DNA of 64,000 bases from Symbiodinium natans (Eukaryota > Sar > Dinophyceae > Suessiales > Symbiodiniaceae): contig CAJNDS010001669.1 of assembly GCA_905221605.1 (NCBI GenBank), positions 62,001 to 126,000 on the forward strand, written 5' to 3'. Numbering within the stretch: the first letter of the stretch is position 1; every line of letters starts with the position of its first letter. The notes beneath the pieces were generated by a model. It saw nothing but the letters and a program-made list of their open reading frames with translations. It did not search any database and was not told the DNA's origin. The translations under genes were made by a program, and so were the position numbers. This document shows, one piece after another, positions 1 through 20,655 of this stretch.

Positions 1-257
1 TGCAGGTTACTCGAGCGTGGCAGGAAGAAGGAGTCACCGCAGCCTAGACCCTCAAACCCTAAACCTTGCTATGGAGGGATCCAAGGAGCTCGCTGTACAG
101 CTTTGGGGACACTGTATAGCCTGATTGGCAATTTTTAACCCCCTGACATATCTTCCTGAATAGGATCCGCTCTAATCACTCAGGGGAACACCCCAAACCG
201 TTTTAAACCCTAAATCCCAAAGGCAGCATCCCATAGCAGGGCTACTGCCCATGCCAG

Positions 258-3200
258 TAGCACGTGGGTTCTTAGGGAGCTCAAAGCAGGCAAATCTCAA
301 ACTCTACAACTTGAGGTATGTTCCTAAACCTTAAGGGCCCAAGACCCCATTATCTTAGCTTTGGAGTAGACCCTGGAAAAAAAGTATATACTTTTTAGGT
401 TTAAGTAGCTATTATAGCAACCCAGAACCAAAAAAGTATTAAAGTGTAGTACTCCAAAACCCAGTTATGTAATTCAGGCTCGTCATCTGTCTTGGGGCCC
501 AAAGACCTTGCATATGTGGGGACTTGGGCCCTTAGGGTAAGTGTTCCTTGCGCTCTCTCCATGTTCTCCAAGGACTGTGGGTGCATCAGCTGAGAGAATC
601 CGCCGCTCCTACTAGTCGTCTGTGGCGGATAAGTCCCATCCCCTAAGCCCCCAAAATTACACACCGCGAACAAACCCCTATCTAGACCCCAAAAAAACAA
701 AACACTGAACCCTCCAAACCCTGAACCCTATAAACCCTCTAATTAAACCCTAAACCCCCGAAACCCTAAACCCTAAACCCTAAACCCCAAACCCCAATCC
801 CTAAACCCTAAACCCTAAACCCTAAACCCTGAGGGTTTTCAACCCTCAAAACCCTCCAGGAGCCAAGAGCCTCGACGAGGCTCTTCAGGGAGTTCACGGA
901 GCTTTGGCGCGACAGATTCGGGCTATCTGGCAGAGACTTTTGGTTTAGGGTTTAGGGTTTAGGGTTTAGGGTTTAGGGTTTAGGGTTTAGCTTTAGGTTT
1001 AGGGTTTGGGGTTTGGAGTTGAGAGTTTGAGGTGCAGAGGATGTTCCCCGTTCTGGTACTAGGCTCTGCTGGGTTTTTGAGGGGCGCCATCTTTCTAACC
1101 ACGTATGTCTAGGTGTTGTGGCAACTCTTTATGGAAGGGCCTAATGCAAAGCCTTTACAGGCTTTGGATGCTTGGGGTCGGGGTTGAGGTACGTAGTTGT
1201 TCTCCAGACTCGAAACCTGAATATGAACAAACCCTAAATCCTAAACCCTGATATGAATAGTTTCTCTAAAAAAAGGAAGCTGTAAACAGCTCTGCCGAAG
1301 CACTAAATTCAGCTTAGGGTTCTGGCTCTCTGTTTCAGGCCGTTGAAGGTTTTTAAGGTTCAAGGGGTTTTAGGGCTTAGGGTTCAAAGGGTTCGAAGGA
1401 TTTTAGGGTTTAGGGTTCAAAGGGTTTTAGGATTTTAGGTTTGAAGGTTTAGGAGGATTTAAGGGTTTCGGTTTAGGGGCTTAGGGCTCAGGGACCCTAA
1501 ACCCTGAACCCTAAACCCTAAACCCCAAGCCCTAAGCCCTAATACCCTAAACCCTAAGGCTTTGGGGTCTGGGGTTTTAAGGCTTTAAGGGTTAGGATTC
1601 CGCAAGCAAGCTCGGGACAGGCAAGCACCTTCTCAAGAACTGGTCGGTACTGGGGTTTAGGGTTTAGGGTTTGGGGAACATCACCTCCCATCTCGCACAG
1701 CCCGCACTTGGCGGTCTGCTTGATGGGGGGCCCCTAAAGCCCTAAACCCTAAAGACCGAAAACTGTAAGGGAATAGGGGGGGATGCTGAGAGCAAGTTTA
1801 GGCCACAGGCCCGAACCCTCAACAAAGAAGGCCAGCCAAATTCCCGGCGCACACACACACACAAAAAAAAAAAACTACAGCCTTAAACCCTGAACCATAA
1901 ACCGAAATCCTGAACCCTAATCGTGCCGCTGCTGCCGGTTTGGATCTCCAGCCTCGGCCCAAACGCAGCATCTCGATAGCTGAGATTCTTCAGGGACATA
2001 CGGAGAGTTTAGGGTTTAGGGTTTGGGGTTTAGGGTTTAGGGGTTTAGGGGTTTAGGGGTTAAGGGGTGTAGGGGTTTAGGGGTTTAGGGTTTAAGGGTT
2101 TGGGGGTTTAGCGGTTTACTTAGGAAGTTCATGTGTAGTTACAAGTAGGCTTCTTTCCAAGTATGGGAACTATACTTCTCTCCCGATTTAGAGTTCTTAT
2201 AACCCTACTTATAAGGGGCTTGGGGTTTGGGGTTTAGGGTTCAATGTTTCGGGGTTTAGGGTTTAGGGTTTGGGGATTTAGGGTTTAGAGGTTTAGATTT
2301 TCTGGTTTAGGAACCCTCGAAGGGACCCTTACTCTTTACTCTTTTGCCCCCTATATAACCCATACATGGTCGGTTCTCAAAGTTAGTAGCCCTTTTTGGG
2401 TGCCCGAAACATCAGGAGCCACAATAGAGAAGTGACCACATAAACTATTCATCGTTGCTATATACCGAAGTAACCCCTACATTACCGGAAGGACCCTGGT
2501 CCCTAAGCCCGAAACCCTCGAACCCTAAACCCGAAACCCCCAACCTCCCCTTCGTCCCTCGCGGCTTCATTCTTGTGGTTTGGTGGTTTTGGGGGTTCCC
2601 GGTCGTTTCCTTCTGCATCTCCAATTCCTTCTCCATCTCCACTTGCAGTGATGATACCACCAGTTGAATGAGGAATCGAACCTGGTTTTCCCCAGCTTCG
2701 CCAAATTCCGCAACAACGCAAGTGTGTAGGTTGAGTGCAGGCCACTGAACTGATCCAGCAGATCTAGCCGGTTCAAGAACACACGCAGCGAGGTCCGATG
2801 TCAGAGATGTTCTGGAGCACAACGAACTTGCCGTGCCCTCACCGATATCTGGATCAATGGTCAACTTGTGCTTCATGCTCGTGAGTCCGGTGTGGTACTC
2901 CAAAGGCATGAAGGTATATAGCTACCTCATATATAAATCCTTTTTAAGGGCCAGAAAGGGGTTTAGGGTTTCGGGTTTAGGGGGCTACTCCCTCATTCCG
3001 ATCGAAGAAACAGTAAGCTTAGGGTTGCGAGCTTTTCAATAGTATCAGCTTTCTACTCCGAGGATCATGGGTAGTTGTAAGAGAGGGTTATGAGCATGGC
3101 AAAATACATCTAACCCTATTTAGGGAACAAAACGAAGTAAACCCTGAACCCTGAACCCTAAACCCTGAACCCTAAACCCTAAACCCTAAACCCTAAACCC

Positions 3201-19341: not shown

Positions 19342-19790
19342 ACACCCCTAAGACCCTAAACCCCGAAACCCTAAAACCCCGAAATCCCTAAACCCCTAAA
19401 CCCCAATGTCCTACACCCTGCACCTCCAAAACCTCAATTCCCTTAACCGCTACATCCTTAACCTGTATGCACCCACAATCCCTAAACCCCTAAGCCCCTA
19501 AACCCCTACCCCCTAAACCCCCAAAACCCCTAAAACCCCTAAAACCCCTAAAACCCCTAAACCCCTAAACCCCTAAACTCTAAAACCCCTAAAACCCCTA
19601 AAACCCCTAAACCCCTAAACCCCTAAACCCCTAAACCCCTAAACCCCTAAACCCCTAAGCCCCTGAACCCCTGAACCCCTGAAGCCCTGAAGCCCTAAAG
19701 CCCTAAAGCCCTAAAGCCCTAAAGCCCTAAACCCTAAACCCTAAACCCTAAACCCTAAACCCTAAACCCTAAACCCTAAACCCTAGGGGC
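19342..19790 (-). repeat. Long CCCCTAAA / CCCTAAAG / CCCTAAA array
   Basis: About 450 bp that changes in blocks: CCCCTAAA and CCCCTAAAA octamers, then CCCCTGAA, then CCCTAAAG, then perfect CCCTAAA. The block order implies local expansion of successive variants. Confidence 0.97.
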
Positions 19791-20655
19791 GCTGTTGGGG
19801 TGCCTTTGTCAACATCCGCGCCGCTTCTGCGGTCTCCCGGTAGGCGCGAGCCTAAAGGGTTTAGGGTTTAGGGTTTAGGGTTTAGGGTTTAGGGTTTCGG
19901 GCTTAGGGGCTAGGGTTTAGAGTTTAGGGATTAGGGTTGTTTAGGGCTTAGAAGGGTTTACAGGGTAGAGTTTGCCAGGTTTAGGGTTGAGCAAGGTTTA
20001 GGGTTGAGGGATTAGTCTCTAAAGTTTTCGTGGCTTTGCCAGTGCTCTGCATTGGGGTCCCCCGTTTGGGGGTATCCGAGGTCACGCGTTAGGGGTGTCT
20101 GGTGCACCAAAAGGGACCATAATTTTGAGAAGGGATGCAACTTGGGTGATTGTGGGTTAAGCTTATGGCTTTGAAGGGCTTTAAGGCTTCTTTGGTGTTT
20201 GGGTTGCTCAGGCAAATCCGGATTTTGGGCGGTTTAGGGTTTGGGGCTTAGGGTTTAGGTTTTAGGGTTTAGGGACTTAGCTTGTCTGACTTTTTTTGGG
20301 GTGCAGGGTTCCGGGGTTAGTGCAAAAGAAGGGTGGCACTACTCAAGGCCTGCTGCTGCTAGGGTTTTAGTCAACAGGTTTATCAAGCAAACAAACGGCT
20401 AACACATGGGAATGCCGTGGCCGCGACTTGGAGGTTCATGCTACTTACCAGTATGAACCAATTATAACGGTACTTGTAACTCACTTATAAGCCCCTTTAG
20501 TGCCCTAATATGGTTGTAAGTACAGTTATAGGGACAGTTCTAATTTGCTTAATAAGTACCATGAACCTCCAAGGAGAATTCTCGTCGATCCGCTGCAGCC
20601 AAGCCACCCATGCACGAAAAGCTTTTCGCTTCTGGCGAGGGTGGAGAAAACGGTC
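19782..20655 (-). CDS. Gene 8: partial minus-strand gene, exon pair around a family A intron
   Basis: Exon 20567-20655 (29 codons, AKSFSCMGGLAAADRREFSL) ends TTGGAG|GTTCATGG at the family A edge, and exon 20376-20426 (SRPRHSHVLAVCLLDKP) starts directly after CCTCCAAG|, both phase 0. The first exon is open in all three frames. Another frame reads KRKAFRAWVAWLQRID, but it does not join in phase. A further block 19782-19851 (RLPGDRRSGADVDKGTPTA) ends at G|GTTTAGGG. A 67-codon frame at 20012-20215 contains repeat Q and L-like sequence and was not used. Start and stop not found. No family recognised. Confidence 0.4.
20427..20566 (-). mobile_element. Family A element as a phase 0 intron
   Basis: Ends CTTGGAGGTTCATG and CATGAACCTCCAAG. 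The inner part contains ACCAATTATAACGGTACTTG and its partial complement. It separates the two gene 8 exons exactly. Confidence 0.75.

Follow-up and report, generated by a model that had tools for sequence, protein, structure and literature searches.

Positions 62,001 to 126,000 of contig CAJNDS010001669.1 from the dinoflagellate Symbiodinium natans, a stretch of 64,000 nucleotides hereafter called the window, contain numerous telomere-type arrays and, on the minus strand at 16761-23368, a region that by homology to two proteins is a coding gene split into very short exons, at least 14 in number. By the same homology, telomere-type arrays make up about two fifths of the intron sequence of this one gene. 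In the window as a whole, TTTAGGG or CCCTAAA arrays, 234 after merging, take up 12,184 of the 64,000 bases and have unique blocks in between. An earlier note on this DNA had described such arrays and blocks; it had further proposed that telomere repeats fill the introns of many-exon genes. TTTAGGG is given as the dinoflagellate telomere unit in PMC11453091, and the unit is assigned here from the literature rather than from the species' own chromosome ends. The arrays are interstitial, with tandem arrays of the unit sitting inside the contig (C1669) and in 10 of 16 stretches sampled elsewhere in the genome.

A generic codon score, computed with the arrays masked, placed 13 of the 16 top-ranked stretches on the minus strand. 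A search of the joined minus-strand guesses against 5.8 billion proteins returned one match, P0001 (EukProt s4956_g4.t1, 267 amino acids, E 6.9e-8), and P0001 used as the query in turn recovered P0002 (E 3.8e-42), a protein without a name from Effrenium voratum, a dinoflagellate of the Symbiodiniaceae. With these two proteins as a guide, 14 exons could be placed in order on the minus strand, running from 23368 down to 16761; position 20655, the end of the feature in the earlier note, is exactly the 5' edge of exon f, and the gene runs on beyond it to 23368. Automatic spliced alignment of P0001 to the gene strand and region scored 749, as against 122-155 on the opposite strand and 14 other region and strand controls (15 in all) and 116-145 in eight shuffles, and P0002 aligned with a score of 471 (control scores exist for P0001 only). 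A model of 185 residues, from which exon l was left out, is identical to P0001 at 158 of 185 residues and to P0002 in 107 of 185 aligned columns. Thirteen of the 14 exons were first picked by eye against P0001 and P0002; the P0001 aligner gave identical edges for 12 of these 13 (not exon i) and supplied exon l, and the P0002 alignment has both edges identical for exons e, e2, f, g, g2, h and j and differs at a, b, c, d, i and k and at the ends. Four extra small pieces offered by the aligner (24379-24387, 23538-23551, 18319-18386 and 18073-18082) were not accepted as exons. The recovered part, 14 exons of 28-71 nt (598 nt in total, mean 42.7 nt, 598/14) and 13 introns of 220-866 nt (mean 462), is as follows, in gene direction:

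23298..23368, minus strand: exon a (RELQMQIRCLREQLVDERRTATE), from P0001 homology, AG acceptor and GT donor; P0002 puts the donor 8 nt further
22993..23297, minus: intron a-b, GT-AG, 305 nt, telomere units in both orientations
22959..22992, minus: exon b (IAQLRLSLDS), P0001 only
22608..22958, minus: intron b-c, GC-AG, 351 nt, telomere arrays
22572..22607, minus: exon c (HAEQDAERTKL), P0001; P0002 edges differ
22322..22571, minus: intron c-d, GT-AG, 250 nt, telomere arrays
22279..22321, minus: exon d (TRLSLQRAYLQAEI); P0002 has an identical acceptor and a donor 9 nt further
21799..22278, minus: intron d-e, GT-AG, 480 nt, arrays G,G,C,C in gene direction
21771..21798, minus: exon e (DKQRDKAER), 28 nt, P0001 and P0002 agree on edges
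20905..21770, minus: intron e-e2, GC-AG, 866 nt, telomere arrays G,G,C,C,C
20876..20904, minus: exon e2 (LEVIRARTL), 29 nt, P0001 and P0002 agree on edges
20656..20875, minus: intron e2-f, GC-AG, 220 nt, telomere arrays
20608..20655, minus: exon f (DRFLHPRQKRKAFRAW), P0001 and P0002 agree on edges
19852..20607, minus: intron f-g, GT-AG, 756 nt, fold-back repeat on the donor side, CCCTAAA arrays near the acceptor
19804..19851, minus: exon g (ARAYRETAEAARMLTK), P0001 and P0002 agree on edges
19087..19803, minus: intron g-g2, GC-AG, 717 nt, long TTTAGGG-type array 23 nt past the donor
19045..19086, minus: exon g2 (LPSVSSPRRLRFLI), P0001 and P0002 agree on edges
18536..19044, minus: intron g2-h, GC-AG, 509 nt, lowest telomere-like content (14%)
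18479..18535, minus: exon h (EDAERDSFSVQCDRWLEDE), P0001 and P0002 agree on edges
18198..18478, minus: intron h-i, GC-AG, 281 nt, arrays G then C
18165..18197, minus: exon i (EEESEDPRSEE), GA donor, placed by eye, edges least certain; aligner 18163-18231 (P0001) and 18165-18191 (P0002)
17785..18164, minus: intron i-j, GA-AG, 380 nt, telomere arrays
17740..17784, minus: exon j (EKIYDNRALLQDQAK), P0001 and P0002 agree on edges
17182..17739, minus: intron j-k, GC-AG, 558 nt, arrays G,C,C
17140..17181, minus: exon k (AAVLTMTKAMTEAE); P0002 has an identical acceptor and a donor 5 nt further
16803..17139, minus: intron k-l, GC-AG, 337 nt, telomere array near the donor, dispersed repeat of about 110 bp near the acceptor
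16761..16802, minus: exon l (EMWTAVCQRIELTR), 3' edge provisional, P0001 alignment only

Read together, the 14 exons give 199 codons in consistent phase, free of stops and frameshifts, and the 13 introns have splice sites of the standard classes, both of which are in part conditions of the model. These features speak against the region being a decayed copy (pseudogene), a reading that could draw on the 5' and 3' gene ends, neither of which was found, and on the 41 residues that P0001 has in excess between exons h and j, divided over two stretches; we hold it to be highly improbable.

Among the donors of the 13 introns, GC is used eight times, GT four times and GA once. The acceptors are AG in 14 of 14 cases, as required by the model, and are followed by G in 12 of 14, the aligner having given a small bonus to AG|G. 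Allowing GC and GA donors lifts the alignment score from 574 (GT only) to 732, and a deliberately wrong donor set (TA/CA/TC) with AG acceptors scores 579, about equal to GT alone; most of the score thus comes from the exons, and it is the further rise to 732 alone that favours GC and GA donors. When any donor was allowed, GT or GC was chosen at 11 of 17 positions (GC 7, GT 4, GA 0, others 6). This mix of donors and the mostly AG|G acceptors, as predicted by the alignments, fit related dinoflagellates: four columns of Table 2 in PMC10666404, taken here as Polarella and Symbiodiniaceae (an assignment made without headings, with one column agreeing with the values for Cladocopium goreaui in PMC9412976), give GC 44-58%, GT 24-37%, GA 17-20% and AG|G 96-97%, and GC and GA donors in dinoflagellates are also reported in PMC11453091.

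The homology-supported junctions depart from those of the earlier note, in which donors often fell on the first GT of GTTTAGGG and array edges served as splice edges. None of the 13 homology-supported donors lies on that GT, nor does any of the 17 donors in the automatic alignment with GT, GC and GA; a GT-only automatic alignment uses it at 2 of 19 donors, at a much lower score. The array edges are likewise displaced from the splice sites, with 14-50 nt between the donor and the first telomere unit in 12 of the 13 introns. At the one example edge of the note that falls within the gene model, 17721|17722, homology instead puts the donor of exon j after 17740 (minus strand), 18 nt upstream; the longer exon would extend the frame by six residues, which are absent from both P0001 and P0002. 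For the edges 10697|10698 and 10781|10782, homology speaks neither for nor against.

Every one of the 13 introns contains at least one exact telomere unit. By a looser measure of telomere-like bases, the arrays cover 40% of the introns (range 14-68%), 26.7% of the sequence outside the gene and none of the 598 exon bases. When the intron mask was shifted circularly within the window 2,000 times, the mean cover was 27.9% and no shift reached 40%, a control that spans one window only. The gap of 14-50 nt after the donor holds for all introns but f-g, whose first 333 nt are free of units; on the other side, the last unit is 8-75 nt away from the acceptor in 11 of 13. This spacing bears on the possibility that the introns are Introner transposons with telomere-like terminal inverted repeats, for which it might be said that dinoflagellates are rich in Introners bearing inverted repeats at both ends (PMC11453091, PMC10666404, PMC9860276). 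The acceptor-nearest units are not at the very ends of the introns, complementarity between the outermost 30 nt at either end, compared over 12 introns, does not exceed that of random pairings (p 0.71), and no repeat family shared among introns appears in the best 70 of 155 rows of a self-comparison of the masked window, so that we regard this origin as very unlikely.

The arrays also show a preferred orientation. The first unit after the donor is TTTAGGG in 10 of 12 introns (those having a unit no further than 150 nt away; one-sided p 0.019), the last unit before the acceptor is CCCTAAA in 7 of 11, and both ends pooled are consistent with this orientation in 17 of 23 cases (one-sided p 0.017). 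The common layout of an intron is therefore donor, 14-50 nt, TTTAGGG array, middle, CCCTAAA array, 8-75 nt and AG, which, viewed from an exon, becomes a block with a CCCTAAA array on its left and a TTTAGGG array on its right (hereafter a C-G block). Inside the gene, an exon is found in six of seven C-G blocks of 60-170 bp and in 4 of 15 other blocks of this size (Fisher p 0.015). The orientation bias, the exact complementarity of TTTAGGG and CCCTAAA, and the excess of C-G blocks in the window and the genome (see below) could all be read as signs of function, whereby TTTAGGG near the donor would pair with CCCTAAA near the acceptor in the pre-mRNA and help weak GC and GA donors. In pairings between ends of different introns, 5'-3' combinations (-87.4 kcal/mol) do beat 5'-5' (-79.2) and 3'-3' (-74.0) ones. 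However, an intron's own two ends pair only insignificantly better than ends of different introns (-98.6 versus -87.4 kcal/mol; p 0.12, 12 introns), exact units are of a single orientation in 4 of 12 introns (e2-f, f-g, g-g2 and i-j), and intron f-g lacks a unit anywhere near its donor. We give such a pairing function little credence.

Beyond the gene, the C-G arrangement is over-represented in the window as a whole, which holds 48 C-G blocks of 60-170 bp as against 29.6 ± 3.7 under permuted array orientations, with none of 10,000 permutations reaching 48. The excess is also seen in 1-17000 alone (15 versus 9.1 ± 2.1; P 0.0062) and remains outside the minus-strand gene (41 versus 24.1 ± 3.4). 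C-G blocks have a higher G+C content than blocks with TTTAGGG on the left and CCCTAAA on the right (56.7% versus 49.6%). Since the C-G pattern is its own reverse complement, it would look the same for genes of either strand. In the whole assembly (759 Mb, 2,543 contigs), three tandem TTTAGGG units are found at 1,185,204 forward and 1,184,385 reverse sites, with overlapping steps counted, as against 41 and 33 sites for the reversed pattern. The 16 stretches, of 4-10 kb and sampled by place (loci L001-L003 and L018, the last of 47 bp, being excluded and L019, 75% N, included), hold 27 C-G blocks versus 16.1 ± 3.0 permuted (P 0.0006). The pattern thus extends past the window, and does so patchily: five of these stretches have about 10-20% array cover and eight have no array or one.

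Several observations weigh against telomere-filled introns, in this gene or beyond it. The eight nearly array-free stretches are joined by the three chaperonin-family loci analysed, out of six, with 0 (L021), 2 (L023) and 8 (L026) units in 3-4 kb, and the arrays are common outside the gene too, at the 26.7% cover given above. The trend towards CCCTAAA at the 3' intron end is not significant (p 0.27). With acceptors left free, AG is chosen at only 11 of 21 positions, with a slightly higher score (771). The splice sites themselves derive from homology and from edges initially chosen by eye, and the gene support is that of one gene. Open frames in the 48 C-G blocks number 87, as against 83.2 ± 6.3 in dinucleotide shuffles, and 120 as against 122.3 ± 6.9 once 12 nt are trimmed from each side; the excess of open phase over shuffled blocks, which the earlier note had set as its own refutation test, is therefore not seen. 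The period-3 signal in the C-G blocks is not significant (z 1.4), nor is any strand preference among those beyond the gene, of which 17 of 41 score better on the minus strand. Finally, C-G blocks not belonging to the gene do not surpass other blocks in exon-likeness (p 0.22), in a test whose weakness is apparent from the mean z of only 0.86 reached by C-G blocks inside the gene. The whole-block frame tests also have low power, because the exons fill about half of the block or less in most C-G cases, and small exons inside larger blocks may explain the absent excess.

The array cover outside the gene, the arrays in 10 of the 16 sampled stretches and the unremarkable C-G blocks outside the gene would all be expected if the arrays were genome-wide repeat noise and the gene merely lay in an array-rich region, with nothing special about its introns. 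The intron cover, above that of all circular shifts, and the concentration of exons in the C-G blocks of the gene argue otherwise, and we consider this account unlikely while allowing it some weight. The proposal of telomere-filled introns in many-exon genes is thus supported for one gene only, by two homologs, spliced alignment and 13 of 13 introns. In the searches with joined proteins, the minus-strand guesses match P0001; a chimera of 461 residues made from the plus-strand guesses, searched for a second gene, has no match at E up to 10. As the other minus-strand guesses inside the query that found P0001 also had no matches, most guesses outside the gene remain unsupported.

Taken together, we regard it as probable, with good confidence, that 16761-23368 represents a dinoflagellate nuclear gene of at least 14 micro-exons, whose dinoflagellate-type introns consist to about 40% of telomere arrays inserted as filler. 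As to the origin of the arrays and any role in splicing, we infer that they may enter as interstitial telomeric insertions, either through the action of telomerase at breaks or as captured telomere fragments, and then expand by slippage. They would persist where splicing is undisturbed, namely in introns and intergenic DNA and usually at least 10 nt from splice sites, and would act as bulk filler rather than as splice signals. More tentatively, the orientation bias (TTTAGGG past donors, CCCTAAA before acceptors) might stem from the mode of array addition or from splice-site avoidance. Repeats of CCCTAAA contain neither AG nor GT and hence no competing splice site, whereas those of TTTAGGG offer TTTAG|G and GGGTTTAG; this would favour CCCTAAA before acceptors and leaves TTTAGGG after donors unexplained. 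A bolder version would have the introns repeatedly broken, capped by telomerase on both sides and rejoined, making telomerase a main intron builder and possibly the driver of micro-exon splitting. Capping of two sides followed by rejoining would yield TTTAGGG and then CCCTAAA within introns, and the exon islands, about 100 bp between a CCCTAAA and a TTTAGGG array, are oriented as a DNA fragment would be once telomerase had capped its two ends; we nevertheless think this scenario quite unlikely.

Should telomere-filled introns prove general, much of the intron material of an intron-rich lineage would be of telomere type, which would tie telomerase or telomere capture to intron growth and account for genes missed by domain searches here. 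Array orientation could then serve gene predictors as an exon marker. The question of intron origin would also become testable, by asking whether close relatives lack the arrays in the corresponding introns.

Domain and pattern searches returned little. In Pfam, no family lay above the cut-off for the guessed peptides, the gene model, P0001 or P0002, and the six-frame search of 1-20000 gave only two sub-threshold matches among 12 frame translations, the latter perhaps owing to exons of only 9-23 residues. On the array-rich stretches L015 and L020, Pfam gave only four zinc-finger families, all sub-threshold and in one frame of L020. That frame is a long open one on the minus strand (about 220-1120) with CCCH and CCHC zinc-knuckle matches below the cut-off, which we presume to be a retroelement. 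Rfam and tRNA scans of the window found none, a search of the Protein Data Bank (PDB) gave a single match at E 0.5, and a search for spliced-leader remnants gave no full match to either of two leader sequences. Of two viral-contig pattern scans, the first had no match and the second one (L001), which is unrelated.

Other repeats were also noted in the window. A dispersed repeat of about 110 bp has copies 86-98% alike at 359-467, 6200-6319, 16840-16952, 27577-27671 (partial) and 50974-51088, one of them in intron k-l of the gene. Fold-back repeats of about 60-160 bp, resembling miniature inverted-repeat transposable elements (MITEs), lie at 8958-9072, 20427-20573, 41166-41229, 52173-52279 and 55505-55598, with more at 55725-55875, 56129-56280, 58543-58661 and 61361-61483; one of the set is on the donor side of intron f-g. 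At 24978-25150, a nine-base variant array (AACCCTACT) is joined directly to a telomere array, possibly by local mutation of the telomere unit and subsequent spread. The top codon-scored exon candidate of the window is DTVEMDGLHELHYSEEDVVHGDRLWSSMSSEDVQANRQL at 57025-57142 (minus strand), with an AG|G acceptor beside a CCCTAAA array; as part of the minus-strand protein query, it found no homolog.

Comparison with known systems places the introns of this gene closest to the spliceosomal introns of Suessiales, with which they share GC, GT and GA donors, mostly AG|G acceptors and a mean length (462 nt) close to the lowest of the means given in PMC10666404 (486-1408 bp); means of 505, 517 and 893 bp for dinoflagellate introns are listed in PMC11453091. 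They differ in the size of the flanking exons, 42.7 nt on average as against 98.7-120.4 bp in the columns of PMC10666404, and in being loaded with telomere-type arrays, which are absent from the passages of the literature compared. Introner elements resemble them in having inverted features toward both intron ends, and are unlike them in the terminal inverted repeat, which was not detected in 12 introns; a shared intron family is not apparent in the best 70 of 155 rows of the self-comparison. Intron filler of telomere-type arrays in dinoflagellates is undescribed among the matches listed in a literature search that covered titles and abstract openings, with few subscription journals. In Karenia, telomere probe signals are described as seldom interstitial (PMC6395649, in the part consulted), so the abundance of arrays here may be lineage-specific.

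Two components of the picture are already known from other organisms, as far as the cited portions of these reports go: telomere-like repeats across a genome, in Eimeria, and telomere insertions at breaks, in mammals. The telomere-like repeat bands of Eimeria (PMC9131526) are like the present arrays in that TTTAGGG repeats are spread over the genome, and unlike them in also holding CAG repeats that run through coding sequence. Bands of this type were looked for in the window, which has no run of four or more of CAG, GCA, AGC, CTG, TGC or GCT; Eimeria was rejected on this ground. Cymbomonas was considered as well and rejected, the main texts of two papers on it mentioning neither telomeres nor TTTAGGG. 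The interstitial telomeric sequences at mammalian double-strand breaks (PMC2246262) are likewise internal arrays of telomere units; compared with these, the S. natans genome has more than 2 million overlapping three-unit sites, and in one of its genes the arrays occupy 13 of 13 introns with an orientation bias relative to the exons.

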